64,000 nt of DNA from a bacterium (GTDB lineage: Bacteria; Desulfobacterota; Binatia; DP-6). The stretch covers positions 309,257 to 373,256 of the forward strand of contig JAHCID010000003.1 in the NCBI GenBank assembly GCA_026129405.1, given 5' to 3'. A model generated the notes under the pieces. That model did not search any database and was not told the origin of the DNA. It saw only the letters and a list, made by a program, of their open reading frames with translations. How positions within the stretch are numbered: the stretch's first letter is position 1; every line of letters begins with the position of its first letter. The position numbers and the translations under genes were made by a program. Positions 26,196 to 61,950 of this stretch are shown piece by piece.

Positions 26196-28832
26196 TCAGA
26201 GCGTGAGGCCGCCGAGCGCACCCGAAGCCCCCGTGAGCGCCGCGCCGAGGGCAGACGCGACGTCGGCCGGGATCTGCTTGCCGGACTGCTTGCCGACGTA
26301 CTTGCCGAGCGCCTTCAGCTGCTTCGTGGCCGCCTTGCGCGCCTTCACCGCCTTCTTGCCGCTGCTGGCACCGACCACGTCGACCTTCGTGCGGATGGCG
26401 CGGAGGCCCTTCGGCAGCTTCTTCGCGGCCTTCTTGCCGAGCTGGCCGCTCGCGCCGGCGACGATGGCAGCCGCGGTCTCGAGGCGGCAGGTGACGCTGC
26501 CGATGCCGACCTTCGGCACGTTCTCGCAGCCGGCGGCGTCGCTGCACGCGTCGTCGGTGCAGAGATCGCCGTCGTCGCACTGCGGCGCGGTGCCGGCGAC
26601 GCAGCCGACCGCCGGATCGCACGTCTCGGTGCCGTTGCAGGCCTGGCCGTCGTCGCAGGCGATGGGCGTGCTGACGCAGCCGACCGCCGGGTTGCACGAG
26701 TCCTGCGTGCAGGCGTCGCCGTCATCGCACGACGGCGGGTCGGCGGGCGTGCAGATGCCGGCGATGCACGCTGCGTCGCCGCACTCGCCGAGCGGGGTGC
26801 AGTCGCCGTGCTCGGCGCACTGGATGCACGCCTCGGTCGACTCGGGCGTGCACAGCTCGCCCACCTCGCACACGCCCGCGAGGCAGGACGAGGGCGTCGT
26901 GCCGTTCGCGGCGCCGTCGTCGCACTCCTCGAAGCAGTCGATGGTGCCGTTGCCGCACTCCTCGGTGCGGCAGCTCGCGCTGCAGCCGTCGCAGGAGACC
27001 GTGTTGAAGTCGTCGCACTCCTCGCCGCACTCGACGACGCCGTTGCCGCAGCCCTCGATCTCGCAGAAGGCGTTGCAGCCGTCGCAGTTCGCCGTGTTGC
27101 CGTCGTCGCACTGCTCGCCGGGGTCGGGGTTGCCGTTGCCGCAGCCGGGCGGCGCCTGCTTCGCGCAGGCGGTGCTGCAGGTGAGCGAGCCCTCGGGTCC
27201 GTCGTCGCACTCCTCGGCGCACTCGATGATGCCGTTGCCGCAGGTCTCGACCTGGCAGGTCGCCGAGCAGCCGTCGCACGAGCTCGTGTTGGAGTCGTCG
27301 CAGCCCTCGAGGTTGTCGGTGATCCCGTCGCCGCAGACGTTGGTAGCGCGCGAGCAGTCGGCGGCGCAGCCGTCGCCGTCCTCGGTGTTCATGTCGTCGC
27401 ACGCCTCGCCGGGGTCGAGGATGCCGTTGCCGCAGATCTGGCAGCGGCACTGCTCGGAGCAGGTCACGCCCTGACCGCAGACGCCCGAGAGCGCGCCGTC
27501 GCACTCTTCGCCCGTGTCGAGGAACTCGTTGCCGCAGCCGACGCCGCCGCAGGGGATGAGGTCGATATCCATGACCTTGGTGGCCGCGGGCACGATGCTG
27601 GCCCCGGTGGTGATGGGCTCCTTGGTGAGCCAGCGCAGCTCGTTCTGCTGGGTCGCCCGCATGGTGCCCGCGACGGTGAGCTGACCGCCGCTGCCGAGAC
27701 GGATGCGCCCGCCGCTGCCGCGCGCGTCGACGACACGGCCGCCGGGCAGGGTGAGGTCGCACTGGGCGCGGATGTCGACCTCGCCGCCGCCGAACGCGTC
27801 GCTGCCGCGGGCGTCGATGTTGCCGAGCACGACCTTGCGGCTGGCCTCGATCTGCACGAGCGGCCCGGTGGTTCCGACGCCGACGGTGCTGCCGTTGATG
27901 CTGACGCTGCCGACCTGGATGAAGTCCTCGCCGGCGGAGATGTCGACGTCGCCGCCCGAGCCCGAGGGCCCGCCGCCGGTGACGTCGATGCTGCCGCTCA
28001 GCTCGACGCTGCCGGTGAAGGCGGTGACGGTGAGGTCGCCGCCGTCGCCGCCGAACGCGCCGCCGGCGCGGCCGGCGAGCCGCAGCGCGCCGGAGAGGGC
28101 CACGCGGCCGTCCACCGAGTCGATCTCGATGGTGCCGCCGGAGCCGTCGACGGCCTTCGCCTGGAGATCGAGGATACCGCCGAGGTTCACGTCGTCGTCC
28201 GCGACCACGGAGAAGGACCCGCCGAGATCCTGGCCGGTGAGGTCGATCTTGCCGCTGAGCGTCACCGAGGCGTCGGAGATCAGGTCGACGGCGCCGCCGC
28301 TGCTGAAGCCCTGCGCGCCGCCGGTCGCGGTGATGTCCCCCGTGATGACGATGTCGCCGGCGGTGATGGCGACGTCGCCGCCGCTCTCGTCGGCGGAGGT
28401 GGCCTTGGCGGTGATCTGCCCGTCGACCTGCACGCGGCCCCCGGCGGTGAGCGCCACACGGCCGGGGAAGGACGCGTTGACGTCGATCTTCGCGGCGTTG
28501 CTGCCCGCCTTCTGGATGCGGATGTCGTTCACCGCGTCGATGCTGAGAAGGCCGCCGGAGCCGACGAGGGCCGCGTTGGTCTCCATGATCACGCTGCCGG
28601 CGACGATGCGGAAGTCGCCGCCGCCGAAGTCGATCTTGGCGCCCTGCTTCAGCACCAGCGTGCGCGCGCCGAAGTCGAAGGTGACGATGGCGGGGCCGGG
28701 GATCGTCCAGTTCCCGGTCACGGTGCATGGGTTCGCGGCAGGCGCACACAGGTCGTTGGGCGAGTTCGCCGGTGCGGCGAACGCCATGGTGGCCGCGAGG
28801 ACGAGCGGGGCAGCGAGCAGGACGCGGGTCAT
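26196..28832 (-). CDS. Exported cysteine-rich protein: beta-helix-like half, Myxococcus-type Cys repeats, basic tail
   Basis: An 878-residue protein. The signal peptide ends AMAFAAPA (residue ~20). Residues ~25-430 are Gly/Asp/Val-rich repeats (for example GGDVAITAGDIVITGDITAT) that look like a right-handed beta-helix. Next come about eight Cys repeats of the form CGNGxxDxGExCDDGNTxxCDGC (the Myxococcus Cys-rich/DUF4215 type), then three CDDGxxCxxDxC units. A tail of about 95 residues starting VTCRLETA is rich in Lys and Ala (GKKAAKKLPKGL) and predicted helical. Three other proteins in the window share this layout of tail. It is presumably secreted or surface-bound. A sigma-54-like element ends 16 bases before the ATG; there is no clear ribosome-binding site. 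Confidence 0.85.
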   Translation of the reverse strand: MTRVLLAAPLVLAATMAFAAPANSPNDLCAPAANPCTVTGNWTIPGPAIVTFDFGARTLVLKQGAKIDFGGGDFRIVAGSVIMETNAALVGSGGLLSIDAVNDIRIQKAGSNAAKIDVNASFPGRVALTAGGRVQVDGQITAKATSADESGGDVAITAGDIVITGDITATGGAQGFSSGGAVDLISDASVTLSGKIDLTGQDLGGSFSVVADDDVNLGGILDLQAKAVDGSGGTIEIDSVDGRVALSGALRLAGRAGGAFGGDGGDLTVTAFTGSVELSGSIDVTGGGPSGSGGDVDISAGEDFIQVGSVSINGSTVGVGTTGPLVQIEASRKVVLGNIDARGSDAFGGGEVDIRAQCDLTLPGGRVVDARGSGGRIRLGSGGQLTVAGTMRATQQNELRWLTKEPITTGASIVPAATKVMDIDLIPCGGVGCGNEFLDTGEECDGALSGVCGQGVTCSEQCRCQICGNGILDPGEACDDMNTEDGDGCAADCSRATNVCGDGITDNLEGCDDSNTSSCDGCSATCQVETCGNGIIECAEECDDGPEGSLTCSTACAKQAPPGCGNGNPDPGEQCDDGNTANCDGCNAFCEIEGCGNGVVECGEECDDFNTVSCDGCSASCRTEECGNGTIDCFEECDDGAANGTTPSSCLAGVCEVGELCTPESTEACIQCAEHGDCTPLGECGDAACIAGICTPADPPSCDDGDACTQDSCNPAVGCVSTPIACDDGQACNGTETCDPAVGCVAGTAPQCDDGDLCTDDACSDAAGCENVPKVGIGSVTCRLETAAAIVAGASGQLGKKAAKKLPKGLRAIRTKVDVVGASSGKKAVKARKAATKQLKALGKYVGKQSGKQIPADVASALGAALTGASGALGGLTL

Positions 28833-28847
28833 CGTGCGGCGGCAGAG

Positions 28848-28863
28848 AGCAACCGGCGTGCCC
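28848..28863 (-). promoter_or_regulatory. Sigma-54-like -24/-12 element before the 26.2-28.8 kb gene
   Basis: GGGCACGCCGGTTGCT has GG-N10-GC spacing and differs from TGGCACGN4TTGCT only at the first base. The C of the -12 GC (28849) is 17 bases from the A of the start codon. Confidence 0.6.
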
Positions 28864-28957
28864 TGGAGCGGCGTGCGTGGCAGCGGCGCAAGGCCTGATC
28901 GTGCAAGGGCGAAATGGCCGCCTTGCGCTACGCCACGAATCGCATGATTGCAAGGCT

Positions 28958-28973
28958 CGGGCGCGCGCGCCCG
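28958..28973. terminator. GC palindrome after the 29-32.7 kb gene
   Basis: CGGGCGCGCGCGCCCG is a perfect 16-base palindrome 23 bases beyond the stop of the minus-strand gene at 28996. There is no T-run, so it is a candidate terminator only. Confidence 0.35.
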
Positions 28974-28995
28974 GGCGCACGCCGATGAGTCGCAG

Positions 28996-33497: not shown

Positions 33498-33513
33498 TGG
33501 CACCTCGCTTGCA
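33498..33513 (+). promoter_or_regulatory. Sigma-54 promoter element of the prepilin gene
   Basis: TGGCACCTCGCTTGCA matches the -24/-12 consensus at every conserved position (GG-N10-GC). Pilin genes are classic sigma-54 targets. The -12 C (33512) is 15 bases from the start codon. Confidence 0.75.
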
Positions 33514-33526
33514 GCCGCGGAGCACC

Positions 33527-33898
33527 ATGGCACGCAAGCAAGACAGCGGCGGTTTCACGCTGGTCGAGCTGCTGGTGGTCGTGTCGATCGTGGGGATACT
33601 GGTCGCGATCGCGCTGCCGAGCTTCGCCGGCCGCCAGGGCAAGGCATACGACGCGCGCGTCCAGTCCGATCTGCGCCGCGCGGCCGCGGGCCAGGAAGCC
33701 TACTTCACCGATCACTTCACGTACTCGAGCGACTGCAACGATCTGCCCGGCTTCGAAACCTCCGACGGCGTCGTCATCACCGACTGTGCCGGCGACGCGA
33801 ACGGATTCACGCTCACCACCGACCACCCCCGCGCCACGCGAAGCTGCACCTGGTCGAGCGGCGGCTCGCCGTCGATGACCTGCGCCCCCAAGTCCTGA
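33527..33898 (+). CDS. Type IV prepilin-like protein
   Basis: A 123-residue protein with a 9-residue basic leader ending in GG, then FTLVELLVVVSIVGILVAIA, the class-III signal with Glu at +5 cleaved and N-methylated by PilD. The globular part has four cysteines, two of them near the C-terminus as in a pilin D-region (SCTWSSGGSPSMTC). The length fits a short PilA/PilE-type major pilin or a minor pilin. GGAG lies 4 bases before the ATG, but the sigma-54 element overlaps this leader. No pilus assembly genes are nearby, so it is a solitary pilin gene. Confidence 0.9.
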   Translation: MARKQDSGGFTLVELLVVVSIVGILVAIALPSFAGRQGKAYDARVQSDLRRAAAGQEAYFTDHFTYSSDCNDLPGFETSDGVVITDCAGDANGFTLTTDHPRATRSCTWSSGGSPSMTCAPKS

Positions 33899-42087: not shown

Positions 42088-43923
42088 TCACTGGCAAACG
42101 CCGTTGAAGCACACCTTGCCGTTCGCCCCGCACGGGGTGAAGTTCGGAAGCTGGCTGTGCCCGCAGGTCGCGACCGGCGCCTCGATCGGACCGTTCAGGG
42201 TGCAGAAGTCCGCCGTGCAGGGGTTCGCGTCGCTGCACAGCTGCGACGCACCCGAGGTGCAGATGCCCTGCTGGCAGGCGTCGAGCGTCGTGCAGGGGCT
42301 GGCGCCGGCACACGAGGTGCCGTTCGGCAGGGGCGTCTGCTTGCAGCCGAGCACCGGATCGCAGGAGCCCGCGGTGCACGGGTTCGCATCGTCGCAGTCG
42401 ACCGCCGTGCCGCCGATGCAGGTGCCGCGGATGCAGGCGTCGCCCTGGGTACAGGCGTTCTCGTCCGTGCAGGCGGCGCCGTTCTCGAGCGGCGTACGCT
42501 TGCAGCCGGTGGCGGGCACGCAGGTGTCGGTGGTGCAGCTGTTGTCGTCGTCGCAGTTGCGTGCCGGCCCGCCGACGCAGACGCCGCCCTGGCAGGTGTC
42601 GTTGGTCGTGCAGAGGTTGGCGTCCGAGCAGCCGCTGCCGTCCGGGCGCGGCTCGTTCACGCAGCCGCGGGCCGGGTCGCAGTCGCGCGTGCAGGGATTG
42701 CCGTCGTCGCAGCTGGGCGGCGTGCCGGGGACGCAGATGCCCGCCTGGCAGGTCTCCTCGCCGTCGCACTTGTCGCCGTCGTCGCAGTCCGCATTGCTCT
42801 CGCAGCGGCAGCGGCACTGGCCGGGCTGCCCTAGCTCGATGCGTCCGAGGCCGCTCGGGTCGCCCGGGATGCAGTCGCCCGGGCAGGCGGCGTCACCGTT
42901 CGGCGCCGAAAGATCACACTCCTCGGCGATGCTGCGCTGCCCGTCGCCGCAGCCGCCCTGGAGCGCGACCACCGCCCGCTTCGAGACGGTGACGCGATCG
43001 GCGATGATCCGCCCGATGACGGTCGCGCTGGCGCCGACGCCGACCTTGCCGCCGGGTACGCGCACCTGCGCCACGACCGTGGCCCCGCGGCTCAGCTTCA
43101 TGGCGGCGCCGGCGACGTTCACCTGGATGTCGCCGGCCAGCAGCGGCTCGCCGGCCGAGGGCCCGAGGTAGCCGCGGCCGGCGATGCCGATGCGCTCGCG
43201 CACGTTGACCACCACGGCGTTGTCCGCGCTCACGCGACCCTCGAACGCCACCTTGAGAGCCGCGATGTCGTAGCGTCCGACGCCGGCTCCGCCGGTGTAG
43301 CCGCGCAGTCGGAGGCGGCCCCCGCTCGCCACCGTCAGAGCGCCGTACCGGCCGGGGGACAATATCCGGGTCTGGCCGGCGGCCACGCTGATGTCCTCGG
43401 TACCGGCGGTGAAGGACGCGAAGGCGGGGAGGGTGGCGAACACCAGCGGTGTCCGGAACGGGTAGGGACCTCCACCGGCCAGGTTCGCGTCCCTGGCCAC
43501 GATCGGGTCGTTGGCGAAGAGGCGACCGAGGTTGGCGCGGGAGAGAACCTTCGTCTTGTCCCCGACCACGTGGCCGGTGACAGGCAGCGCACCGTCCTTG
43601 CCGAGGGCGAGGAAGCCGTCGGCGGCGGTCGCCGCGATGCTGCCCCCGACGATCACCGTGCTGCCGCCCAGCTTCACCTGCTTGCCGCCGATGATGGCGT
43701 AGGCGCGGAAGTCGCCGAGCGGGACCGCGCAGGTGCAGCGCTCGATCACCGGCGGCAGGATGCAGGCGCCGGGGCAGGCGGCGTCACCGCCGGGCGCGGA
43801 GGCGTCGCACGCCTCGGCCGGCTGCTTGATCCCGTCGCCGCAGACGGCGTGTGCGGTCCGTGCCAGCGGCGGCACACATGCAAGGAGGCCGAGCAGGATG
43901 GTCGAGGTGAGACGAGTCCGCAT
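42088..43923 (-). CDS. Exported cysteine-rich protein without basic tail
   Basis: A 611-residue protein with signal peptide TSTILLGLLACVPPLARTAHA. It starts with a CGDGIKQPAEACDASAPGGD repeat that recurs near residue 330 (CGDGQRSIAEECDLSAPNGD). Between the copies is a beta-rich domain (YAIIGGKQVKLGGSTVIVGG). The C-terminal 240 residues are about ten CDDGNPCTxxxC units. It ends at FNGVCQ, without the basic helical tail of its relatives. ATG 43923 fits the signal peptide. A near-perfect sigma-54 element ends 14 bases before this ATG; there is no Shine-Dalgarno. The next exported gene is divergent. Confidence 0.85.
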   Translation of the reverse strand: MRTRLTSTILLGLLACVPPLARTAHAVCGDGIKQPAEACDASAPGGDAACPGACILPPVIERCTCAVPLGDFRAYAIIGGKQVKLGGSTVIVGGSIAATAADGFLALGKDGALPVTGHVVGDKTKVLSRANLGRLFANDPIVARDANLAGGGPYPFRTPLVFATLPAFASFTAGTEDISVAAGQTRILSPGRYGALTVASGGRLRLRGYTGGAGVGRYDIAALKVAFEGRVSADNAVVVNVRERIGIAGRGYLGPSAGEPLLAGDIQVNVAGAAMKLSRGATVVAQVRVPGGKVGVGASATVIGRIIADRVTVSKRAVVALQGGCGDGQRSIAEECDLSAPNGDAACPGDCIPGDPSGLGRIELGQPGQCRCRCESNADCDDGDKCDGEETCQAGICVPGTPPSCDDGNPCTRDCDPARGCVNEPRPDGSGCSDANLCTTNDTCQGGVCVGGPARNCDDDNSCTTDTCVPATGCKRTPLENGAACTDENACTQGDACIRGTCIGGTAVDCDDANPCTAGSCDPVLGCKQTPLPNGTSCAGASPCTTLDACQQGICTSGASQLCSDANPCTADFCTLNGPIEAPVATCGHSQLPNFTPCGANGKVCFNGVCQ

Positions 43924-47200: not shown

Positions 47201-48403
47201 GCGAGCTGCAACGACGGCAACCTCTGTACGCTGAGCGACGTGTGCAGCAACGGCGTCTGCGGCGGCGTGCCGCTGCCCTGCGGCGACGGCAACGCGTGCA
47301 ACGGCATCGAGACCTGCAACCCGACGACGGGCCAGTGCCAGGCCGGCACGCCGCCGAACTGCGACGACGGCGACGTGTGCACCAACGACGCCTGCTCGGT
47401 GGCGGTCGGCTGCGTCTACACCTACAACACGAACCCCTGCGACGACGGCAACGCCTGCACCGGCACGCCCTCGATGCGCGACCAGTGCAGCAACGGAGCT
47501 TGCATCCCGGGCGCCGTCATCAACTGCAACGACGGCAACGTCTGCAACGGCACCGAGATCTGCGACCCCGAGATCGGCTGCCAGGCGGGTACGCCGCTCG
47601 CGTGCAACGACGGCAATCCCTGCAACGGCGTCGAGACCTGCAGCCCCGCGGCGAACGGCTGCGTCGCCGGCAACCCGCTCGTCTGCGACGACGGCAATGC
47701 CTGCAACGGCCTCGAGACCTGCGACCCCTCGAGCGGCTGCTCGCCGGGCACGGCGCCGAGCTGCGACGACGGCAACCCCTGCACCGCCGACAGCTGCGAT
47801 CCCACCGCGGAGGGCGGCTGCAAACACGTCCCCCTCGACGACGTCCCCTGCGACGACGGCAGCGCCTGCACCCTGGGCGACGTCTGCACCGCCGGCGTCT
47901 GCGGCGGCACGCCGCAGGAGTGCGGCGACGACAACCTCTGCAATGGAACCGAGACCTGCAATGGACAAACCGGAGTTTGTGAGGCCGGCACCCCCGTCGT
48001 CTGCGACGACGGCGACGAGTGCACCATCGACAACCCCTGCGATCCGCTCCTCGGGTGCAGCTTCACGCGCGTCCCGAACTTCGTGGTCTGCCGTCTGGAC
48101 CAGATCAGTAGCCTGGTCCGGGCCGCCCAGCCCTTCGACGTCGGCGGGCGCAAGCGCCAGAAGGTCCTCCTGAAGCGTCTCGCCCAGGCCCGCCGCAGGG
48201 CGCAGCTCGGCCTGATCGGGACCGGCAACAAGGCGGTCCAGAACCTCCGCCGCTCGGATCGCCGCCTGCAGTCCTTCATGGGGCTGCTCCAGATCGGCCT
48301 GCTGAAGGGCCGCGTCCAGGCCGAGATGGGCGAGCGGCTGCTCGGGCTGGCGTCCGATACCGAGGGCGAGATCACGACCCTCGTGCGCAACACTCCGCGC
48401 TGA
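44300..48403 (+). CDS. Giant exported protein: PD40-type beta-propeller, Cys-rich repeats, basic tail
   Basis: A 1,367-residue protein with signal peptide ending GTAHA (~residue 29). Residues ~30-450 are TolB/PD40-like propeller blades, each with a VFEST or AFDT strand and QIYLANLKTGE-type strand. A conserved middle part follows (DCDGG, CTADD, LRLTTGNAGATIDD, RAGDLAGAKLVG). From about residue 745 there are 19 cysteine units alternating CDDGNxCNGxETC and CDDGNPCTxDxC. The tail starts VVCRLDQISSLV and is strongly basic (GGRKRQKVLLKRLAQARRR). ATG 44300 has GGAGG 4 bases upstream, preferred over ATG 44288. The gene at 48.7 kb is a full-length paralog. It is likely a surface or matrix protein; the ligand is unknown. 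Confidence 0.87.
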   Translation: MRVGTKITSTLSVLTAIVGMGVLPGTAHALHRETPGAVQITNGVSHVHSTGRSWGNYLTFVSSQDLAGTGNTTKQVFVFNLAAYDCAKGTTVPTTPCPPATTPHIWQLTTGNGQPDNPSAGTPSNGATIGDLWVAFDALGSFSVPGALSPLSGAAGNRRQIYLANLKTGEYRRVTTAADGDSIRPSVNVLAGVVVFESTATALSGMQNPSGTSQVYAYQKGNGAITRISQCATGPCNASGNSRFPNTNRDGTRIVFESTSDLMGNGHDTGVWQIYFADFAKNGNPPSSTLYRLTNGNASSHNPHIAENGPVVAFDTTATNLPGVAGGAGRRVVLANVSTPAAPTLLGITTPEVYGDCSYPALNPGATATGATQFQARVPMICTGDPLQNGTTGNRAFVYDTTGTLNQITGAGDVQGPLAANLGLWFMTVATSSDLTGGGVCGYQIYSINYNVEQNPNTGWLPATQIGQLPPDSLGQRTSSVVGLRNFEVLPESSSTRLTNAAGTTNAAVPAGVTIGLDIGAPSGFNGQAPIKVPKARVVLPPVPVPNLGAICMKAVGDGTGIIDCDGGPSQANVLLYRDHNIDDTDPSCFGGCREDDATCQGSLIGPHRGDIGLGVCNGPLVEDFTGSYAAGGARVSIPVAYGLSTGAGLDGVFCTADDIYSSVQGVTATLRLTTGNAGATIDDRDNVLMQSISAAAVGTPFECNRVRAGDLAGAKLVGFLPILDAPVARDVVLGFSLVAAPSANNSCGASCGSDFDCDDGDQCNGAETCNLTTRRCVAGTPLVCDDGNVCNGTEVCDPQQGCVAGTPCNDGNPCNGEETCSPTTGCQPGTPIVCTDGNACNGLETCNPANGQCVAGTAPVCDDGNPCTNDGCNPATGCTYMNNTNPCNDGSACTENDVCAGGQCKGTLTSAAQICNAGNGTVCDGIEQCSPATGACEATPLDCDDGNPCTDDMCDPVLGCQHVNNTASCNDGNLCTLSDVCSNGVCGGVPLPCGDGNACNGIETCNPTTGQCQAGTPPNCDDGDVCTNDACSVAVGCVYTYNTNPCDDGNACTGTPSMRDQCSNGACIPGAVINCNDGNVCNGTEICDPEIGCQAGTPLACNDGNPCNGVETCSPAANGCVAGNPLVCDDGNACNGLETCDPSSGCSPGTAPSCDDGNPCTADSCDPTAEGGCKHVPLDDVPCDDGSACTLGDVCTAGVCGGTPQECGDDNLCNGTETCNGQTGVCEAGTPVVCDDGDECTIDNPCDPLLGCSFTRVPNFVVCRLDQISSLVRAAQPFDVGGRKRQKVLLKRLAQARRRAQLGLIGTGNKAVQNLRRSDRRLQSFMGLLQIGLLKGRVQAEMGERLLGLASDTEGEITTLVRNTPR

Positions 48404-48650: not shown

Positions 48651-48666
48651 TGGCATGTTTTCTGCT
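48651..48666 (+). promoter_or_regulatory. Sigma-54-like element of the 48.7-53.1 kb gene
   Basis: TGGCATGTTTTCTGCT, GG-N10-GC. The -12 C (48665) is 16 bases before the ATG, the same spacing as in the paralog at 44.3 kb. Confidence 0.65.
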
Positions 48667-48680: not shown

Positions 48681-51600
48681 ATGCGGACAAAGCGGAAGAT
48701 CTCTTCGTCCGGCCTCCTGCTGATCCTGCTTGGATTCGCGGCCGCCCTCACTCCGATCACGGCATTCGCGCTCCATGAGGAGTCGCCTCCGGTCACCCGC
48801 CTGAGCAGCGCCGACGATCACTTCCATCCGCCCGGCCGCTCGTGGGGCAACTGGTTCGCGTTCTCCTCGACGCAGGACCTGCTGAACATCGGCCCGGCCC
48901 GCGCGCCCGGCCGGCAGATATACCTGTTCAGCATGGGCTTCTTCGACTGCTACCAGGGCACGACCAAGTCCTGCTCCGACCCGAACGCCCCGGACGACTG
49001 TCAGCAGACGCCATGTCCGCCCGCCGGCACCCCGTACCTGTACCAGGTGACGAACTTCCCCGGCGACTTCGACAATCCGTCGGTGAGCGTGGCCCCCGCC
49101 TCCACCGATCCGCAGCGGCGCTACTACGACCACTGGATCGCCTTCGACGGCCCGGGCAACTACCTCGTAGCCCCGGGGACCTCTCCGCATCCGTCGCACA
49201 GCCGGCGCCAGGTCTTCATGTGGAATCAGCACACGCGGGAGTACCGTCAGGTCACGACCGGGACCGACGGCGACAGCGTCAAGCCGTCGCTCAGCCGCGG
49301 CGGCCAGATGATGGTGTTCGAATCGACCGCGTCGCTCGGCGGCTTCCCCAATCCCGCCGGCGTGAAGCAGGTCTATCTCTACCAGCGCAGCCAGTCGGGT
49401 CTCGGCGGCATCGGCTCGCTGAAGCGGCTCAGCGTCGGCCCGGCGCCCGCCAACGTCATCGGCCTCGGCGCGAGCACGGCGCCGATCCTCAACGAGAACG
49501 GCACCGGCGCCGCCTTCCAGTCGACGGCCGACCTCATGGGCTCCGGCAACGACACCGGCGTCTCGCAGATCTTCTACGTCGACATCGACAAGCGGAACTT
49601 CGTCACCAAGCTGACCCAGGTGACGAGCGGCAACGGGCCGAGCCGATCGCCCCATCTCGGCTTCACCCGCACGCCGAATCCGCTCCCCGGCGCCGACAAC
49701 CGGCGCAAGATCCTCCTCTTCGAATCGTCGGCCACCAATCTTCCGGGGCAGGTCGCGGGGACGACGGGCAACAACATCTACGAGGTCCAGATCGCCGGCC
49801 TGCCCGACGACAACGGTGATCCGGCGAGCACGGTCACGGCGATCACGACGCAGCTGCTCGGCGACTGCCACTACCCGAGCGTCGATCCGTCGGGGAATCG
49901 TCTCGGCTTCGTCTGCAAGGGCGACCCGTTCCAGAACGGCACCACCGGAAACCGCGCCTTCGCCCTCACGCGCAACAACGGCCAGCTCTTCCAGCTGACC
50001 GGCGCGGGCGACATCCACGGTCCCATCGGCCAGAACATCGGCCAGTGGTTCATGACCGTCTCGACGACGAGCGATCTCACCCAGGGCGGCAGCTGCGGCT
50101 ACCAGCTCTACGTTCTCGACTTCACGCGCAGCCGCTGGGCGGCGGCGACGAGCCTCAACCAGGCGCCGCCCGACGTCGTCGGCCAGAACCCGACCTCGGT
50201 CATCGGCCTGAAGAACTTCGAGTTCGCCCCCGGCACCGGGGTGGGCGGTACGCAGATCGCGATCACGACGCGCGACGGGACGTTCACCGGCAACCTCGCC
50301 TCGATCCCGAACACCGCCGAGGAAGGCCGGCTCGGTCTCAACATCGGAGCCCCCGACGAGTTCTTCCGTGAGGCGTCGGTGAGCGTGGCGATGAACCGCG
50401 TCAAGCTGCCGGCGGTGCCGATCCCCGGCTACGGCGCGGTCTGCCTCGAGGCCACGTCGGCGCCCATGGGTCTGCTCGACTGCGACGGCGGCGCGCTGAA
50501 CGGCGATCTGCTCTCGCGCCAGGACCACCTCACCGACGACGTCGACTTCTTCTGCGAGAACGGCTGTCGTGAGAACGACGTCTCCTGCCAGCCGCTCGGT
50601 CTGTCGGGGCCGTACCTGGCGCAGTGTCCGACCTGTAATACGACCACGCGCACCTGCGACGGCGGACCGAACCACGGCATCGGCTGCAGCTCCGACGCCA
50701 CCTGTCAGCTCGGCGTGCCCTGCGCCCAGTGCCCCGTCTGCGACACCGTCACCCAGGTCTGCACGGGCGGTCCGGCGGTCGGCTTCCCCTGCAGCTCCGA
50801 CGCCACCTGCCGCGTCGGGCTGACGTGCAACGTGGTCCCGGCCTGCAACGGCCCCCTCACGGTGCAGTCGCAGGGGCTCTATCAGCCCGGCGGCATGCGC
50901 CTCATCGCGCCGGCGAAGCTGTCGATGAGCCTCGCTCCGGGCAAGGACGACAAGTGGTGCACCGCCGACGATCTCAAGTCGTCGGTGCAGGACGTGCCGA
51001 CCGAGATCCGCCTGACCACGGGCACCGCCACCGCGGAGATCCAGGACGCCGATGCCCAGCCCGGGCTGACGATCCCGGTCAGCGTGACCGGTGCGCCGTT
51101 CGACTGCACCCGCCTGCGCGCCGGTGACCTCGCCGGGGCACGCCTGGTCGGCACCGTCTCGCTGCTGAACCTGCGCACGAACCCCGGCATCCGCGATGCG
51201 ATCCTGAGCCTGCGCCTCGAGCCGAAGACCAACACCGCCAGCTCGTGCGCTGCCTTCTGCCAGACCTCCGCCGACTGCGACGACGGCAACCTGTGCAACG
51301 GCACCGAGAGCTGCGTCGCCAACCGGTGCCAGTCGGGCCAGCCGCTCATCTGCAACGACGACAACGTCTGCAACGGCGCCGAGACCTGCCATCCGGTGCT
51401 CGGCTGCCAGACGGGCACGCCGCTCAGCTGCGACGACGGCAACGCCTGCAACGGCACCGAGACGTGCCACCCCGTCAACGGCTGCCAGACGGGCACGCCG
51501 GTCACCTGCACCGACCCCGACGGCGATCCGTGCACGGGCGAGCCGGTCTGCAACCCGGCGAACGGCGCCTGCGTGATGCAGCCGCCGCCCACCTGCAACG

Positions 51601-53078
51601 ACGCCAACGTCTGCACCGACGACTCCTGCGTCCAGTTCGTCGGTTGCCAGCACGTGCCCAACTCGAATCCCTGCAACGACGGCAGCGCCTGCACCGAGAA
51701 CGACACCTGCTCGGGCGGTGTGTGCGCGGGCCAGCTCACGGCCGCCGCGGTCATCTGCAACGCCGGTGACGGCAACGTCTGCAACGGCGCCGAGGCCTGC
51801 AACCCGGCCAACGGCGCGTGCGCGCCGGGGACGCCGCTGGTGGTCGACGACGGCAACCCCTGCACCGACGACATGTGCGACCCGATCACCGGGGTCAGTC
51901 ACATGCCGAACACCGCCGGCTGCAACGACGGCAACGCCTGTACGTCCGGCGACGTCTGCTCGGGCGGGACGTGCGCCGGCACGCCGATCACCTGTGACGA
52001 CGGCAACGTCTGCAACGGCGTCGAGACCTGTGATCCGAGCAGCGGCTGCACCGATCCGCCCGACCTGGTCTGCGACGACGGCAACACCTGCACCTCGGAC
52101 AGCTGCCATCCGATCAACGGCTGTCAGAACGTGCCGGTGACCAACGGGACCGGGTGCACCGACAACAGCCTCTGCACGACCGGCGACAGCTGCCAGAACG
52201 GCGTCTGCACCGGCACTCCGATCGTCTGCGACGACGGCAACGTGTGCAACGGCACCGAGAGCTGCGATCCGGGCAGCGGTTGCCTCTTCGGGGTGCCGCT
52301 CGACTGCGACGACAACAACTTCTGCACCAACGACTCGTGCAACCCGGGCTCGGGCTGCGTCAACGCGCCGAACAGCAATCCGTGCAACGACGGCAGCCTC
52401 TGCACCACCGGCGACGTCTGCTCGGGCGGGACCTGCGCCGGCACGCCGGTGAGCTGCAGCGACAACAACGCCTGCAACGGCGAAGAGACCTGCAACCCCG
52501 GGACCGGCGCCTGCGAGCCGGGCCTGCCGCCGTCGTGTGACGACGCCAACGTCTGCAACGGCGCCGAGACCTGCAACCCGGCGACGGGCTGCGTGGCGGG
52601 CGCGCCGCTCAACTGCAACGACGGCAACGCCTGCAACGGCCTCGAGACCTGCGATCCGAGCGGCGGTTGCCTCCCGGGCACGCCGCCGAACTGCAACGAC
52701 GACGACGTCTGCACCGCCGACTCGTGCGACCCGGTCCTCGGCTGCGCGAACGTCCGCGATCCGAACTACGCCCTCTGCCGCATGAACGTCCTCGCGGACA
52801 CGCTGCTGGCGACGCCCGGAGAGAGCCTCGGCGGGGTGCGCAAGAAGCGCAAGCTGATCCGCATCGTCACCGGCAGCATCAAGCTGCTGCAGAAGTCGCT
52901 CGCAGCGAACCCGCGGCAGGCGGCCGTCAATCTGCGGCGCTCGCAGCGTAAGCTGCTGAAGTACACGAAGCAGCTCCAGAAGTACGTCGACAACCGCATC
53001 GTGTCCGGTGCCGTGGGTGACCCGCTCCTCGAGCTCGGTCGCGTCGCGGCGCTCGCCCTGCAGGAGCTCGGGCAGTGA
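48681..53078 (+). CDS. Giant exported protein, paralog of the 44.3 kb gene
   Basis: A 1,465-residue protein with a signal peptide ending PITAFA. It is colinear with the upstream neighbour: RSWGNWFAFSSTQDL, GDSVKPSLSRGG, STADLMGSGNDTGVSQI, TGAGDIHGP, GQWFMTVSTTSDLT, LLDCDGG, CTADD and RAGDLAGARLVG. It differs by two CSSDATC units (residues ~665-710) in the middle. About 19 Cys units follow. In one unit both the first and last Cys are Val (residues 1055 and 1072). The tail starts ALCRMNVLADTLL and is basic (GGVRKKRKLIRIV). There is no Shine-Dalgarno before ATG 48681, but the sigma-54-like element is close upstream. Tandem duplication produced the pair. Confidence 0.87.
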   Translation: MRTKRKISSSGLLLILLGFAAALTPITAFALHEESPPVTRLSSADDHFHPPGRSWGNWFAFSSTQDLLNIGPARAPGRQIYLFSMGFFDCYQGTTKSCSDPNAPDDCQQTPCPPAGTPYLYQVTNFPGDFDNPSVSVAPASTDPQRRYYDHWIAFDGPGNYLVAPGTSPHPSHSRRQVFMWNQHTREYRQVTTGTDGDSVKPSLSRGGQMMVFESTASLGGFPNPAGVKQVYLYQRSQSGLGGIGSLKRLSVGPAPANVIGLGASTAPILNENGTGAAFQSTADLMGSGNDTGVSQIFYVDIDKRNFVTKLTQVTSGNGPSRSPHLGFTRTPNPLPGADNRRKILLFESSATNLPGQVAGTTGNNIYEVQIAGLPDDNGDPASTVTAITTQLLGDCHYPSVDPSGNRLGFVCKGDPFQNGTTGNRAFALTRNNGQLFQLTGAGDIHGPIGQNIGQWFMTVSTTSDLTQGGSCGYQLYVLDFTRSRWAAATSLNQAPPDVVGQNPTSVIGLKNFEFAPGTGVGGTQIAITTRDGTFTGNLASIPNTAEEGRLGLNIGAPDEFFREASVSVAMNRVKLPAVPIPGYGAVCLEATSAPMGLLDCDGGALNGDLLSRQDHLTDDVDFFCENGCRENDVSCQPLGLSGPYLAQCPTCNTTTRTCDGGPNHGIGCSSDATCQLGVPCAQCPVCDTVTQVCTGGPAVGFPCSSDATCRVGLTCNVVPACNGPLTVQSQGLYQPGGMRLIAPAKLSMSLAPGKDDKWCTADDLKSSVQDVPTEIRLTTGTATAEIQDADAQPGLTIPVSVTGAPFDCTRLRAGDLAGARLVGTVSLLNLRTNPGIRDAILSLRLEPKTNTASSCAAFCQTSADCDDGNLCNGTESCVANRCQSGQPLICNDDNVCNGAETCHPVLGCQTGTPLSCDDGNACNGTETCHPVNGCQTGTPVTCTDPDGDPCTGEPVCNPANGACVMQPPPTCNDANVCTDDSCVQFVGCQHVPNSNPCNDGSACTENDTCSGGVCAGQLTAAAVICNAGDGNVCNGAEACNPANGACAPGTPLVVDDGNPCTDDMCDPITGVSHMPNTAGCNDGNACTSGDVCSGGTCAGTPITCDDGNVCNGVETCDPSSGCTDPPDLVCDDGNTCTSDSCHPINGCQNVPVTNGTGCTDNSLCTTGDSCQNGVCTGTPIVCDDGNVCNGTESCDPGSGCLFGVPLDCDDNNFCTNDSCNPGSGCVNAPNSNPCNDGSLCTTGDVCSGGTCAGTPVSCSDNNACNGEETCNPGTGACEPGLPPSCDDANVCNGAETCNPATGCVAGAPLNCNDGNACNGLETCDPSGGCLPGTPPNCNDDDVCTADSCDPVLGCANVRDPNYALCRMNVLADTLLATPGESLGGVRKKRKLIRIVTGSIKLLQKSLAANPRQAAVNLRRSQRKLLKYTKQLQKYVDNRIVSGAVGDPLLELGRVAALALQELGQ

Positions 53079-55795: not shown

Positions 55796-58423
55796 TCAGC
55801 GCACCTCGCCGATGCGGAAGGCCTTCGACTCGGTGACGTCCCACTGGTCCTGGCGCTCGACGTAGGCCTGATCGACCGCGTCGCGCGGCAGGCAGCCGGC
55901 ACGGCCGCGCACGCGGTCGCGCATCTCGGCGCCGGCATGGGTCGTCACCGGCGGGACGTCGACCGGCGTCGGGCTCGACGCCTGCTTGGCGGCCACGGCG
56001 TAGCCCTCGTAGGTGTTGCCCGCGACGAAGACCGGCCCGCTCTGCTGCAGGCGCAGCGCGCTGTCGGCCTTGCCGCCCTCGGCGCGCGCGTGCGTCCCGA
56101 GCACGAAGAGCGAGTTGACGATGTTGCCGCTCGCGGAGGCCTCGAACCGCGTGCCCCAGAGCGTCCAGTCCTCGACGATGAGGTTGCGCAGGTCGACCAC
56201 GGCGGAGCCGGAGACGAGGGGGCCGCGGATCCACTGCTTCATGATCCAGGTGTGATGCACGCTGACGTTCGTCGTCGAGCCGTATTTTAGGAAGATGGAG
56301 CGCGTGTTGCCGGCGAGGAAGCAGTACTGGACGGTGACGTCGCGGGCACCGTAGCCGATCGAGATGCCGTCGTCGGAGGCTCCCGTCGACGAGACGTGAC
56401 TGAAGACGATGCGCTGGGCGCCGTTGCCCTGCGCGCGCAGATTGTCGGAGCCGTTGCGCAGCCGCAGGTTGCGGACGATCACGTCGCTGCCGCGCACGTC
56501 GATCAGGTTGACCGAGGCGCCGGACCTGGCGACGAGCGTGGCGCCGTTGCCCTCGATGGTGACGAAGCTGCCCTCGAGACGCGGCAGGCTCTTGCTGATC
56601 TGGATCGGACCGGGGGTGTCGAAGCGGACGATGGTGCGCCCGGCGTTCGCCGCCTGGATGGCGGCCCGTACCGCCGCCTCCGTCGGCTCGCTCACGATGA
56701 CGACCCGGCCGCCGGCGCCGCCGGGCGTGTCGGCGCCGAAGCCTTCGAGCGGATCGGCGTCGTTGTCGTCGGGGCCGCCCGGCGGCGGCGGCAGGACGTC
56801 GTCGCCGACCGTGATCGTGACGCTGGCCGTCGTGCTCTGACCGCCCGCCGTCACCGTGACCCGCGCCGTGTAGGTGCCGGAATTGAGATACTCGTGGTCC
56901 GCGCGCGCGCCGGCCGCGGGAATCGCCATCGTGGAGGCGAAGACGGGCCCTTCCGGCGGAATCGCGCAGCGGCCGTCGCGCAGCTTCTGCTCGGCGCGCT
57001 TGATGTTGCCGACCGTTCCGTTGAGCTCGGGCAGCTTGGGAAAGCCGCCCGCAATGGCCTGCGCCTTCGACTCGCGCGAGTACCGCAGGGAGGCTGCGTA
57101 GCGCTCGCATCCGGAGCGGTCGACGTCGTTGAACAGGTAGATGCCGCCGAGATCGTGCGCGATCTTCTGGAGGTACCAGCGCGCCACGCGATCGATGCGG
57201 TTGGTACCCTTGCGGGCGATCGGACCGATCTCCTGCACCGCGGTCAGGGGCACGAGGTTCGTGACCAGCGCGAGGTAGGCGCTCACCGCTTCCGGATACT
57301 TCTTGCCGTCGCGCTTGCTGCGGGCCGCGGTGTAGGCCGGCGGCGCTGCCTTGATGCCCACGGCGGGGTTGCCGCTCGGCGCCGGCGGGCCGCCGGTCAG
57401 ACCGTCGCCGAACGACCAGGAGTAGGCGAGGGCATCGCCGTCGGCGTCGCTCGAGCCGCTGGCGTCGAGCTGCACGCGCAGCGGCGGCGGTCCGGCCACC
57501 GGAGTCGCCGTGAGCTTCGCGATCGGCGCGCTGCCGCCCTTCGGGGGCGGCGGGGGCGGCGGCGTCGCGCTCAGCTCGCCGGGACGCAGCGCCGGGACGG
57601 CAGGCCCCGAGCCGGGATCGGCGATCGCCCAATCGGAGCGCAGCTTCCAGCCGCGACCTGTGTTCTCGTACGCCACCGAGCGCGCGCTGCCGTCGGCGAC
57701 GATCACGTCGAAATCGCCGTCGCCGTCGAGGTCGCCGAGCCCGGGATTGGTGCGCGTCGAGGTGCGCGGCAGATCCCACCCGGGCGCGCGTACGAACGGC
57801 GCACTGGGATCGCCGGTGGCGAGGAAGGCGTAGACGTCGCCCGGTGCGGTGCCGACGAGGAGGTCGAGCCGCGCGTCGCCGTCGAGCCGACCGAACGCCG
57901 GACGGGCGTACTGCGCGCCGCCGGCGAAGTCCCACGCCGTGCGCCGCTGCCACTTCGGGCCACCCACGCCGCCGACGTTCGCGAACGCGACGATGGCGCC
58001 GCTCGCGGCACCGATCAGCAGATCGGCGTCGCCGTCGCCGTCGATGTCGCCGAGCGCCGGCGCAGCCGCCGAGCCGACGTCGAGACCGGGGTCCCACGCG
58101 GCGCGGCGCTCCCACACGGGCGCGGCGTCGCTGCCGACGTTGGCCCATGCCTGCACGAGGCCGCCGTTCTCGCCGACGAGCGCATCGTGATCGCCGTCGC
58201 CGTCGAGGTCGGCGAACGTCGGCGCGGCGTAGCCGCCGACGTCGGGCAGGTCGCTCGTCGCGCGCGCCTTCCACGGCATCGCGCCGCCGACCGTCGAGTA
58301 GGCGATGCTACGGCCGTTCGGGAGACCGAGGTAGAGCACCGCTGCGTTGCTTGCCGTCGCCGAGACGGTGAGTGCCACCGCACCCGCCATCGACGTCCAC
58401 CACTGCCGCGTGTTGCACTGCAT
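55796..58423 (-). CDS. Exported FG-GAP / split PKD / pectate-lyase-like protein
   Basis: An 875-residue protein with signal peptide to about residue 28 (ATASNAA). Residues ~65-250 carry four FG-GAP/VCBS repeats (FADLDGDGDHDALVGENGG, GDIDGDGDADLLIGAASG). A proline run (~288-294) precedes the first half of a PKD domain (DASGSSDADGDALAYSWSFG). A helical insert of ~160 residues follows, then the second PKD half (HEYLNSGTYTARVTVT). The C-terminal ~300 residues resemble polysaccharide lyase family 1: IEGNGATL, RNLRLRNGSDN, DDGISIGYGARDVTVQYCFL, WIRGPLVSG with the expected Arg. It probably binds and perhaps cleaves an acidic polysaccharide. ATG 58423 is preferred; ATG 58390 is possible. Confidence 0.85.
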   Translation of the reverse strand: MQCNTRQWWTSMAGAVALTVSATASNAAVLYLGLPNGRSIAYSTVGGAMPWKARATSDLPDVGGYAAPTFADLDGDGDHDALVGENGGLVQAWANVGSDAAPVWERRAAWDPGLDVGSAAAPALGDIDGDGDADLLIGAASGAIVAFANVGGVGGPKWQRRTAWDFAGGAQYARPAFGRLDGDARLDLLVGTAPGDVYAFLATGDPSAPFVRAPGWDLPRTSTRTNPGLGDLDGDGDFDVIVADGSARSVAYENTGRGWKLRSDWAIADPGSGPAVPALRPGELSATPPPPPPPKGGSAPIAKLTATPVAGPPPLRVQLDASGSSDADGDALAYSWSFGDGLTGGPPAPSGNPAVGIKAAPPAYTAARSKRDGKKYPEAVSAYLALVTNLVPLTAVQEIGPIARKGTNRIDRVARWYLQKIAHDLGGIYLFNDVDRSGCERYAASLRYSRESKAQAIAGGFPKLPELNGTVGNIKRAEQKLRDGRCAIPPEGPVFASTMAIPAAGARADHEYLNSGTYTARVTVTAGGQSTTASVTITVGDDVLPPPPGGPDDNDADPLEGFGADTPGGAGGRVVIVSEPTEAAVRAAIQAANAGRTIVRFDTPGPIQISKSLPRLEGSFVTIEGNGATLVARSGASVNLIDVRGSDVIVRNLRLRNGSDNLRAQGNGAQRIVFSHVSSTGASDDGISIGYGARDVTVQYCFLAGNTRSIFLKYGSTTNVSVHHTWIMKQWIRGPLVSGSAVVDLRNLIVEDWTLWGTRFEASASGNIVNSLFVLGTHARAEGGKADSALRLQQSGPVFVAGNTYEGYAVAAKQASSPTPVDVPPVTTHAGAEMRDRVRGRAGCLPRDAVDQAYVERQDQWDVTESKAFRIGEVR

Positions 58424-58439: not shown

Positions 58440-58455
58440 TGCAGTCGGCGTGCCG
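58440..58455 (-). promoter_or_regulatory. Sigma-54-like element before the FG-GAP/pectate-lyase-like gene
   Basis: CGGCACGCCGACTGCA, GG-N10-GC with GGCACG and CTGC conserved. The -12 C (58441) is 18 bases before ATG 58423. Confidence 0.5.
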
Positions 58456-58828: not shown

Positions 58829-58844
58829 TGGCATCCGACTTGCT
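58829..58844 (+). promoter_or_regulatory. Sigma-54 element of the regulator operon
   Basis: TGGCATCCGACTTGCT, GG-N10-GC with TTGC intact. The predicted transcript would start near 58855 and carry an AGGAGGGG ribosome-binding site before GTG 58881, so leader length is normal here. Confidence 0.65.
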
Positions 58845-58880: not shown

Positions 58881-59177
58881 GTGCACGACTCGTCCGGCAA
58901 CGACACCGTCCGCGAGGTGCTGGATCGCATCCTCACCTCCTACGAAGACATCGACCGTCGCTTCGCTGCGGCCGGCGGGCTCGGCAGCCTGCTCAACCTC
59001 TACGAGCAGGTTCGCCGCGAGCTCGAGCGCGTGTCCTATGCCGAGATCGATCGCATGACCGGGGAGATCAAAGGCGTCATCGAGGCGCTCCTCAAGATGG
59101 ACTACCAGCTGAAGCGGGTGCACCACCTGAAGCTCACGTTCGACGCCCGCCCGCTCGGCGCCGCGCCCGGAAGCTGA
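58881..59177 (+). CDS. Small helical protein of unknown function
   Basis: A 98-residue protein starting at GTG 58881, with AGGAGGGG 10 bases upstream. It is largely amphipathic helix: NDTVREVLDRILTSYEDIDR, YEQVRRELERVSYAEIDR and IKGVIEALLKMDYQLKR. It has no cysteine, no signal peptide and no named domain that I recognise. It is the first gene of the group that encodes a kinase-like protein and an NtrC-type regulator. It could be an adaptor or dimerisation partner of those proteins; this is an inference from position only. The start codon lies within TCGTGCACGA, a 10-base palindrome. Confidence 0.65.
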   Translation: MHDSSGNDTVREVLDRILTSYEDIDRRFAAAGGLGSLLNLYEQVRRELERVSYAEIDRMTGEIKGVIEALLKMDYQLKRVHHLKLTFDARPLGAAPGS

Positions 59178-59334: not shown

Positions 59335-60171
59335 ATGCCGCGCGAGCTTGCCTCCAGTCGTTCCCGTCGCTCGACCTACCGGAAGACGGTGGCGTCGCGC
59401 GGTGTTGCATCCGACGTCGCGCCGATGCGCGACGACGTCACCGCAGCGGCGCAATCGCAGAGCGACACGCCCGCACCTGCACCCGCGCACGGTCCGGCGC
59501 GACCGCTCGCGGCCCGCAGTGAGACGGCGCCGCCGGCGGCGGTGCAGGAGCGGGTGCTCGCGGAAGTGGGACACGAGCTGGGGAACTTCTTCCACAAGCT
59601 CTACTACTGGGCCGAGTACCTCCAGGAGCGCCGCGCCGGCCATGGCGGCGACACCACGGCCACCCAGATGCTGGGGCGCACGGTGCACAACCTGGAGGAG
59701 TTCCTTCGCACCACGCTCGACTTCTTCCGTCCGATCACCCTCACGCCGATGAGCCTCTCCGTGACCGAGCTGGTCGCGGGCGTCCTCGGGCAGCTGCGCG
59801 CGCAAGCCGACGGCATCTCGCTCACGGTCACCGACCCGGGTGCGTGGGAGGGACACACGGTCGTCGTCGATCCCGTGCGACTGCCGCCGGTGTTCCTGCT
59901 CGCGATGCGGCGCCTGGCCGAGCAGGCGGCGCCTGGCAGCCGCCTGCGCGTCAGTCTCGCCGAGGTCGAGCAGGGCGGACGAATCGGACTCGAGGTCGCG
60001 TTCGCACTGGCAACACCGGGCAACACCACGTCGCTGTTCCAGACGGCGGCGGCGGGGATCGAATGGGCGGTGGCGGAGCGGGTGGTGGCCCTGCACGGTG
60101 GGGCGCTCACGGAGCACGACGCCGGGCAGGACGAGCGACGCATCGTCGTCTTCCTGCCGTTTCACGCCTAG
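59335..60171 (+). CDS. Histidine-kinase-like protein with degenerate ATPase half
   Basis: A 278-residue protein without transmembrane segments. After a ~65-residue Ala/Pro-rich N-terminus comes a HisKA-like helix, VLAEVGHELGNFFHKLYYWA, with His80. The C-terminal part keeps the end of a HATPase fold (EWAVAERVVALHGGALTEHD, RRIVVFLPF). The N-box Asn is missing (MRRLAEQAAPGSRLRV where LxNAxxA is expected) and no glycine-rich lid is seen. It may be a pseudokinase or phosphatase for the response regulator encoded 15 bases downstream. ATG 59335 is the likely start; ATG 59425 is an alternative. Confidence 0.72.
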   Translation: MPRELASSRSRRSTYRKTVASRGVASDVAPMRDDVTAAAQSQSDTPAPAPAHGPARPLAARSETAPPAAVQERVLAEVGHELGNFFHKLYYWAEYLQERRAGHGGDTTATQMLGRTVHNLEEFLRTTLDFFRPITLTPMSLSVTELVAGVLGQLRAQADGISLTVTDPGAWEGHTVVVDPVRLPPVFLLAMRRLAEQAAPGSRLRVSLAEVEQGGRIGLEVAFALATPGNTTSLFQTAAAGIEWAVAERVVALHGGALTEHDAGQDERRIVVFLPFHA

Positions 60172-60186: not shown

Positions 60187-61614
60187 ATGGAAACCCGCAT
60201 CCTCATCGTCGACGACGACCCCTTCATCTGTCGCCAGCTCGAAGAGCTCTACGTCTCGCAGCGCTACGCCGTGTCGTGCGCGCCCAACTCCACCGAGGCG
60301 CTGCGCCTGCTCGGCGAGCACGACTTCGCTCTGGCCGTCGTCGATCTCAAGATCCCGGGTACCGACGGCATCGGCCTCACCCGCGAGATCAAAGACCGCT
60401 GGCCCGATCTCGACGTCATCATGATCACCGGCTACGCGAGCATCAAAGGCGCGGTCGAGGCGATCAAGCAGGGCGCGAGCGACTACATCACGAAGCCGTT
60501 CCAGAAGGAGGAGATCCTCCTCGCGACCGAGAAGATCCTCGAGAAGCGGCGGCTGCTCGACGAGATCAACTACCTCCGCAGCCAGCTCTCCGATCGTTAC
60601 TCGTTCGCGAACATGGTGAGCCGCAACCGCGTCATGCACGAGATCTTCGAGACGATCTCGGTGCTGGCGCAGAACGACGCCACGGTCCTCATCTACGGCG
60701 AGTCCGGCACCGGCAAGGAGCTCGCCGCGCGCGCCATCCACTATCAGGGCAAGCGCAAGAACGGCCGCTTCGTCGCCATCAACTGCGCGGCGTTCCCCGA
60801 CACGCTGCTCGAGTCCGAGCTCTTCGGCTACGAGCGCGGCGCGTTCACCGGCGCCGTGCACGACCGCGTCGGCAAGATCGAGCTGTCGAGCGGCGGCACG
60901 CTGTTCCTCGACGAGATCGAGTCGATCTCGCTCAACATGCAGCTGAAGCTGCTGCGCGTCCTCGAGGAGCGCGAGGTCGAGAAGCTCGGCTCGAACCGCC
61001 GCATCAAGGTCAACATGCGGATCATCTGCGCCACCAACATGGACCTGGCGCAGGCGGTGGCCGAAGGCCGGATGCGCGAGGACTTCTACTACCGCATCAA
61101 CGTCGTGCCCCTGCGCATCCCGCCGCTGCGCGAGCGCATCGAGGACATCCCGCTGCTGGTCGGCGAGTTCCTGCGCAACAGCGAGATGGCGCGCGAGAAG
61201 GGCATCAACCGCCTCTCGAACAAGGCGCTCTCGCAGCTCATGAGCTACTCGTGGCCGGGCAACGTGCGCGAGCTGGGAAACGTCATCGAGCGCGCCATCC
61301 TGCGCACGAGCGGATCGGTGATCCGCGAGGTCGATCTGCCCGGGCACTCGAGCGTGGGCCGTGAGACCGCGAACGGCACCGGACGCCAGTCCGGCTACGA
61401 CTACGAGGTTCCGCTGAAGGAGTATCTGCGGCGCGCGGAGAAGGATTACCTGACCCGCGTCCTGCGCAAGTACCGCGGCGGCATCAACCTCACGGCCAAG
61501 CACGCACTCGTCGATGCGGCGACGCTGCACCGCAAGATGAAGCTCCACGGTCTCCGGCGCGAGGACTACCGCCTGCGGGGCGGGAAGCTCGACGCCGCCG
61601 AGGCCGTCGGCTGA
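60187..61614 (+). CDS. NtrC-family sigma-54-dependent response regulator
   Basis: A 475-residue enhancer-binding protein. The receiver domain (1-120) has phosphoacceptor Asp53 (VVDLKIPG) and Lys103 (ITKPF). The AAA+ domain has Walker A GESGTGKE (171-178), GAFTGA (218-223, the sigma-54 contact loop) and Walker B GTLFLDEI (237-244). WPGNVRELGNVIERAI closes it. The C-terminal helix-turn-helix (about 430-465) includes AATLHRKMKLHGL. All residues needed to activate sigma-54 polymerase are present. ATG 60187 follows GAGGA. The window holds several sigma-54-like promoters that it could serve. Function resembles PrsR of PEP-CTERM systems, but orthology is not shown. Confidence 0.95.
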   Translation: METRILIVDDDPFICRQLEELYVSQRYAVSCAPNSTEALRLLGEHDFALAVVDLKIPGTDGIGLTREIKDRWPDLDVIMITGYASIKGAVEAIKQGASDYITKPFQKEEILLATEKILEKRRLLDEINYLRSQLSDRYSFANMVSRNRVMHEIFETISVLAQNDATVLIYGESGTGKELAARAIHYQGKRKNGRFVAINCAAFPDTLLESELFGYERGAFTGAVHDRVGKIELSSGGTLFLDEIESISLNMQLKLLRVLEEREVEKLGSNRRIKVNMRIICATNMDLAQAVAEGRMREDFYYRINVVPLRIPPLRERIEDIPLLVGEFLRNSEMAREKGINRLSNKALSQLMSYSWPGNVRELGNVIERAILRTSGSVIREVDLPGHSSVGRETANGTGRQSGYDYEVPLKEYLRRAEKDYLTRVLRKYRGGINLTAKHALVDAATLHRKMKLHGLRREDYRLRGGKLDAAEAVG

Positions 61615-61674
61615 CGCGGCCGATCGGCGCCGTCTCCGCGCGGGCGTCTCTCGCCCGCGCACATCGCGCCGATG

Positions 61675-61690
61675 CGGCAACTGCCTTGCA
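61675..61690 (+). promoter_or_regulatory. Sigma-54-like element, distal, before the polysaccharide operon
   Basis: CGGCAACTGCCTTGCA, GG-N10-GC with a perfect TTGCA. The predicted start near 61701 leads into a region without a clear gene. ATG 61706 lies 17 bases after the -12 C, as in the exported-protein genes, but its frame does not look coding. Confidence 0.5.
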
Positions 61691-61731
61691 GTGATGCACG
61701 GATTGATGCGCCATGACGAGAGGTGTGACCT

Positions 61732-61755
61732 GGATCGTGCGCCATCGCACGATCC
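61732..61755. promoter_or_regulatory. Perfect inverted repeat, candidate regulator site
   Basis: GGATCGTGCG and CGCACGATCC are exact complements separated by CCAT. The site lies 180-200 bases before the proximal sigma-54-like element, a position typical of enhancer-binding protein sites. A transcript hairpin is the alternative. Confidence 0.5.
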
Positions 61756-61934
61756 GATGTGCGCGCGCGGCGGGCGGCTCCGGCCCATGTGCCGCCGGCG
61801 CCCGTCCGGACGGGGCGGTGCGATCGTGCACGGACGCCGCATCAGTGCGAGGCATCGAGCGATTCCTCTGCGTTTGCGCGAGGGTCGAAAGCGTCGAGAA
61901 ATCAACGGCTTTCCCGTCATGGCGCGATGTGGCG

Positions 61935-61950
61935 TGGCATTGAAATTGCA
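61935..61950 (+). promoter_or_regulatory. Sigma-54 element of the polysaccharide export operon
   Basis: TGGCATTGAAATTGCA, GG-N10-GC with TTGCA intact and an A/T-rich spacer. The predicted start near 61961 leaves a leader of about 180 bases before ATG 62144. Confidence 0.7.

Follow-up and report, generated by a model that had tools for sequence, protein, structure and literature searches.

In leaderless genes of the TA-led type, the motif TANNNT lies about 12 bp before the start codon (Zheng et al. 2011, PMC3160421), and a -10 motif is found in Deinococcus (PMC12340547). TANNNT before the start codon is generally accepted as marking sigma-70 leaderless genes, and Zheng et al. state that only Pribnow-box promoters were identified in their survey (PMC3160421). 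For sigma-54, the accessible part of the account by Francke et al. (2011, PMC3162934) places sites before genes for pili, flagella, polysaccharides and exported proteins, as in the locus described here; distances are given in 100-nt bins, sites from -50 to 300 nt are allowed, and a leaderless class, predicted here, is absent from that part. Since surveys of leaderless genes have covered Pribnow boxes only and surveys of sigma-54 have used coarse distance bins, leaderless genes behind sigma-54 promoters would escape both. RNA-seq studies of S. meliloti, Leptospira and B. japonicum report leaderless mRNAs coexisting with sigma-54 promoters (PMC3616915, PMC5243855, PMC4842269), the leaderless-mRNA motif of B. 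japonicum being an extended -10 box (PMC4842269); the portions of these studies at hand, supplementary tables excluded, draw no link between sigma-54 and leaderless mRNAs. No description of a sigma-54 leaderless class was found in the literature searched, although most subscription papers and all supplements fell outside that search and absence is thus unproven. The PrsR/PrsK system of PEP-CTERM proteins (Haft et al. 2006, PMC1569441) resembles our locus in combining sigma-54-linked exported genes, an NtrC-type regulator and exopolysaccharide genes, but its element lies on average 71 nt, and at least 23 nt, from the start codon (PMC1569441), in comparison with 11 to 16 nt here.

The window, that is, the whole stretch of 64,000 nucleotides analyzed, has a GC content of 72.5% and comes from a bacterial genome of 5.63 Mb. 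A preliminary description listed nine sigma-54-type elements before genes, and we verified all nine 16-mers at their coordinates and strands; the element at 61675 departs from the consensus proposed for them, having no pyrimidine after GGCA, and is a poor match. In six cases, the distance from the -12 C to the ATG was confirmed as 15 (33498), 16 (43953, 44270 and 48651), 17 (28863) or 18 (58455) bases. Measured as d, the number of bases from the last base of the 16-mer to the ATG, the six spacings are 13, 14, 14, 14, 15 and 16. Sigma-54 RNA usually starts about 12 bases past the -12 C. If the C is at -12, the predicted leader is d - 10, which agrees with the earlier estimate of 3 to 6 nt for the six close sites.

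The close-spaced genes of the window encode exported repeat proteins and one prepilin. The element TGGCACCTCGCTTGCA (33498..33513, + strand) stands 13 nt before ATG 33527, with a predicted +1 near 33524, and gives a near-leaderless layout to the gene of a prepilin with a type IV N-methylation motif (33527..33898, +; Pfam N_methyl, 2.1e-08), whose homologues in three other genera (L140, L149 and L128) show spacings of 12, 13 and 15 nt. On the opposite strand, GGGCACGCCGGTTGCT (28848..28863, -) lies at d = 15 from ATG 28832, the start of an exported protein with DUF4215 and cysteine-rich acidic repeats (26196..28832, -), and TGGCACGTGTCTTGCC (43938..43953, -) at d = 14 from ATG 43923, the start of an exported protein with Dicty_CTDC repeats (42088..43923, -); in both, the signal peptide begins at this ATG. 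Two large exported proteins, paralogues with 40 to 46% identity, follow at the same spacing of d = 14: the first (44300..48403, +) behind TGGCATGGTTCCTGCT (44270..44285, +; ATG 44300), the second, with Dicty_CTDC repeats (48681..53078, +), behind TGGCATGTTTTCTGCT (48651..48666, +), its ATG 48681 being the earliest possible start in the frame. The sigma-54-like element CGGCACGCCGACTGCA (58440..58455, -; ATG 58423, d = 16), before an exported protein with FG-GAP and PKD repeats (55796..58423, -), is the weakest of the six. A Shine-Dalgarno sequence had been ascribed to two of the close genes; a clear core was present in the spacer of only one of the six sites, that at 44270, where the GGGAGG would be upstream of the predicted +1. 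Taken as a whole, the region 26196-53078 encodes a row of exported proteins of very large size whose repeats are of the Dicty_CTDC, DUF4215 and cysteine-rich acidic types; several of these proteins are paralogues.

The remaining elements differ in layout. The gene behind TGGCATCCGACTTGCT (58829..58844, +) has a normal leader, with AGGAGG and GTG 58881 at d = 36; it encodes a 98-aa protein (58881..59177, +) and heads a small operon with two regulator genes. One of these (59335..60171, +; start uncertain) is weakly sensor-kinase-like, scoring 21.7 bits against the ZraS model, far under the cut-off, and matched no Pfam family; standing before the gene of an NtrC-type regulator, it may encode a kinase partner that has degenerated or diverged strongly. 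The other (60187..61614, +) encodes an NtrC-type sigma-54 activator with receiver and AAA+ domains (Pfam Sigma54_activat, 5.8e-69; Response_reg, 4.1e-27) and is, by its proximity, a candidate activator of the promoters described here. A search upstream of the window promoters gave no shared activator site or dyad, and several activators may act. Against TIGR02915 (PEP_resp_reg) the regulator scored 371.7, with a cut-off of 502.6, and exosortase (EpsH, PF09721) had no match in the host genome; together with a spacing outside the published range, this excludes a PEP-CTERM/PrsR regulon. The weak element CGGCAACTGCCTTGCA (61675..61690, +) was missed by the consensus scans and may be due to chance. 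The last element, TGGCATTGAAATTGCA (61935..61950, +), precedes the gene of a polysaccharide export lipoprotein at 62210; the nearest ATG, 61966, is 15 nt after the site and opens 39 codons only. Judged by eye (window 61935-62956, L048), the gene at 62210 opens an apparent exopolysaccharide cluster continuing past the window. The TGAAA spacer of this promoter is found again in four members of the family (G148, G149, G150 and G152), in two of which a protein that looks NusG-like by eye follows the site at 19 nt (L178 and L179).

In the window, the strict motif TGGCAYN5YTGCW has 5 matches, in comparison with 0.12 in shuffled sequences, while the relaxed YGGCAYN5YTGC has 7 against 2.1; the relaxed consensus being less distinctive, the signal sits in the stricter one. 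Across the host genome, we found 42 sites of the form TGGCAY-N5-TTGCW and 4 of the reversed pattern. Gene calls came from a home-made gene finder applied to host stretches of 1.24 Mb in total that include all 42 strict sites: all 42 are intergenic, although noncoding sequence makes up only 12% of the sample. Replacing N5 with N3, N4, N6 or N7 gave 0, 0, 1 and 0 sites. The rpoN check proposed earlier was positive, the genome holding one sigma-54 gene (one Sigma54_DBD match) and approximately 27 full-length activator domains (Sigma54_activat). By motif, exact spacing and intergenic position, the strict sites are sigma-54 promoters, from which we infer sigma-54 dependence. The other option raised earlier, a use of the element unlike that of classic sigma-54 promoters, found no support, as the motif, the exact N5, rpoN and the approximately 27 activators all follow the classic pattern; ordinary leaders with a Shine-Dalgarno sequence precede many sigma-54 genes in the same genomes.

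The spacing to the start codon is nonrandom. An ATG lies at d = 11-16 in 13 of the 42 strict host sites, whereas the other offsets lead one to expect 2.8 (p = 9e-6), and 7 of the 13 form a sharp peak at d = 13. The genome scan that the preliminary description had named as a possible refutation came out in its favor. Six further genomes from this family (f1) have 69 of 152 ATGs at 11-16 nt, in comparison with 21 expected (p = 1e-16), the mode again being 13 nt with 26 ATGs; in another family of the class, f69, 24 of 54 ATGs fall within this range. These counts include orthologous sites, the 93 short-spaced sites reducing to 76 nonredundant ones. The shuffles, the reversed pattern, the spacer variants, the offset peak and the conservation within the family exclude a chance origin. 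In 147 other genomes of the phylum, short spacings are not in excess (224 at d = 11-15 versus 231 at d = 26-30, p = 0.41), which excludes a phylum-wide property; the close spacing belongs to this lineage of the class rather than to sigma-54 promoters at large. Five phylum members with AT-rich genomes showed 36 short spacings against 13.9 expected but were picked for their high short counts and, being selected on the count itself, are not taken as evidence. On the planctomycete side, in the phylum of a Phycisphaerae match, no enrichment was seen except in genome G178, where 15 of 40 ATGs near strict sites are at 11-16 nt in comparison with 5.7 expected (p = 9e-4, post hoc), possibly a second occurrence of close sigma-54 promoters.

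In GC-rich DNA, reading frames stay open over long distances and offer many NTG alternatives, and an upstream alternative start was present in 31 of 39 short-spaced frames; as most of them are open upstream, as high GC predicts, individual start codons are uncertain, and one could propose that the real starts lie downstream and leave normal leaders. Such misassignment would have to contend with the signal peptides and the prepilin motif of the window starting exactly at the close-spaced ATGs and with the family loci examined, where frames of 50 aa or more begin at 39 of the 41 short-spaced ATGs and the codon preference score climbs across the ATG in 35 of the 39 (p = 1e-7). Orthologue pairs are, moreover, co-terminal from residue 1 at the short-spaced Met (L134 and L159, L127 and L152, and L139 and L155), and GTG, counted likewise in three genomes of the families with close sites, has no peak comparable to the strong one of ATG. 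We therefore consider misassigned starts very improbable.

A sigma-54 polymerase could instead act at these sites mainly as a brake, its closed complex at the start codon blocking an upstream sigma-70 promoter from which a longer mRNA is made and translated. Stable closed complexes are an established property of the sigma-54 holoenzyme, but one would expect such a longer mRNA to have a Shine-Dalgarno sequence in the spacer, and the cores there are at background: we found them in 9 of 93 short spacers, whereas 26 of 68 long spacers have one (p = 3e-5), or 21 of 68 when only the last 14 nt are considered (p = 9e-4), the background rate being 10.8%. As the narrow family spacing of 12-15 nt is also needless for a blocking site, we regard this explanation as unlikely. 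Similarly unlikely is that these are ordinary sigma-54 promoters with RNA starting several bases closer to the -12 element, giving a short leader and standard initiation independent of Shine-Dalgarno. The start point is predicted only, and just about one third of host genes (331 of 963) have a Shine-Dalgarno core, both of which suit this view; the element would nevertheless be only about 11-16 nt from the ATG, and the sharp family peak is what a constraint tied to the 5' end of the RNA would be expected to produce.

The reading that the sites are sigma-54 promoters giving leaderless or near-leaderless mRNAs, with leaders of about 1-6 nt, as a lineage-level architecture, is in our judgment quite probable, and the earlier suggestion of leaderless mRNAs gains support, at the sequence level, from the spacing peak, its family conservation, the lack of Shine-Dalgarno enrichment, the co-terminal orthologues and the presence of sigma-70 leaderless genes. 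In the 1.24 Mb of host stretches, TANNNT stands at -14 to -12 of the ATG in 18 genes in comparison with 2.9 expected (p = 2e-9), and a Shine-Dalgarno sequence is present in none of the 18 but in 245 of 604 other ATG genes. This signature makes it very likely that leaderless mRNA is translated by the organism. The TANNNT peak in these stretches spans -12 to -18 of start codons, ATG and GTG alike. The TA-led class thus exists in the host genome beside the sigma-54 class, and in both a promoter element set close to the ORF at a fixed distance takes the place of the leader and a Shine-Dalgarno sequence is lacking; promoter geometry predicts leaders of about 0-6 nt for both. They differ in that TA-led genes rely on the sigma-70 Pribnow box, whereas the genes described here have a -24/-12 sigma-54 promoter that would need an activator.

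Under the mechanism we propose, activator-dependent sigma-54 promoters would be placed straight against the start codon in this lineage. With GG and GC at -24 and -12 and the usual start point, the ATG would fall at about +2 to +7, leaving a leader of about 1-6 nt, and ribosomes would have to engage the mRNA at its 5'-terminal AUG with no help from a Shine-Dalgarno sequence. This layout is found at about one third of the strong sigma-54 promoters of the host, and others have ordinary Shine-Dalgarno leaders. The sequences themselves show the motif, the spacing peak and its conservation, the start codons, the lack of Shine-Dalgarno enrichment and the presence of rpoN and activators; the sigma-54 dependence, the exact 5' ends and translation from a 5'-terminal AUG are predictions from them, and the choice of activator is likewise inferred. 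Two points count against the leaderless reading: the modal spacing gives a predicted leader of about 3 nt, not 0, and no purine preference was visible at the predicted +1.

The tie to exported proteins drawn in the preliminary description is a feature of the window: genome-wide, nonexported products are also found behind close sites, which excludes a rule restricted to exported proteins. Elsewhere, with product names other than those tested with HMMs assigned by eye, the close-spaced genes include PilT (L037), a FliK-like protein, FlgF (G152), small HTH regulators, a response regulator, an HDOD-like protein and SRPBCC-like proteins. The gene set agrees with the role of sigma-54 in controlling the cell exterior (PMC3162934), yet is not confined to exported proteins. 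Orthologues can differ in layout. The host gene L006 has a 58-nt leader with GAGAGGA before its ATG, while L138, 86% identical from Met1, has a spacing of 13 nt; the window gene 58881, with its Shine-Dalgarno sequence at d = 36, has an orthologue in G152 (L148) with an ATG at d = 11 and no Shine-Dalgarno sequence. A gene leadered in one genome can thus have the near-leaderless layout in another. L006 and L138 are small HTH proteins of one family (QEEFAHEIAVTVSTVNRWENAHAEPSKLAWKAI), which also comprises L139, L155, L163, L141, L168 and the host gene L040; several occur per genome, each gene behind a sigma-54 site, and the spacing ranges from 12 to 58 nt across orthologues and paralogues.

Activator-dependent control by sigma-54 is the tightest form of bacterial transcription control. 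It seems likely, if a little less so than the leaderless reading itself, that throughout the lineage such promoters serve as standard start devices of leaderless genes, joining this control to initiation at a 5'-terminal AUG, with leadered and leaderless orthologues differing in this respect. If this is true, activator-dependent genes can do without a leader, and the sigma-54 site would provide an anchor for the annotation of start codons in such genomes. The natural pairs of leadered and leaderless orthologues would then allow a direct test of what the leader contributes to expression.
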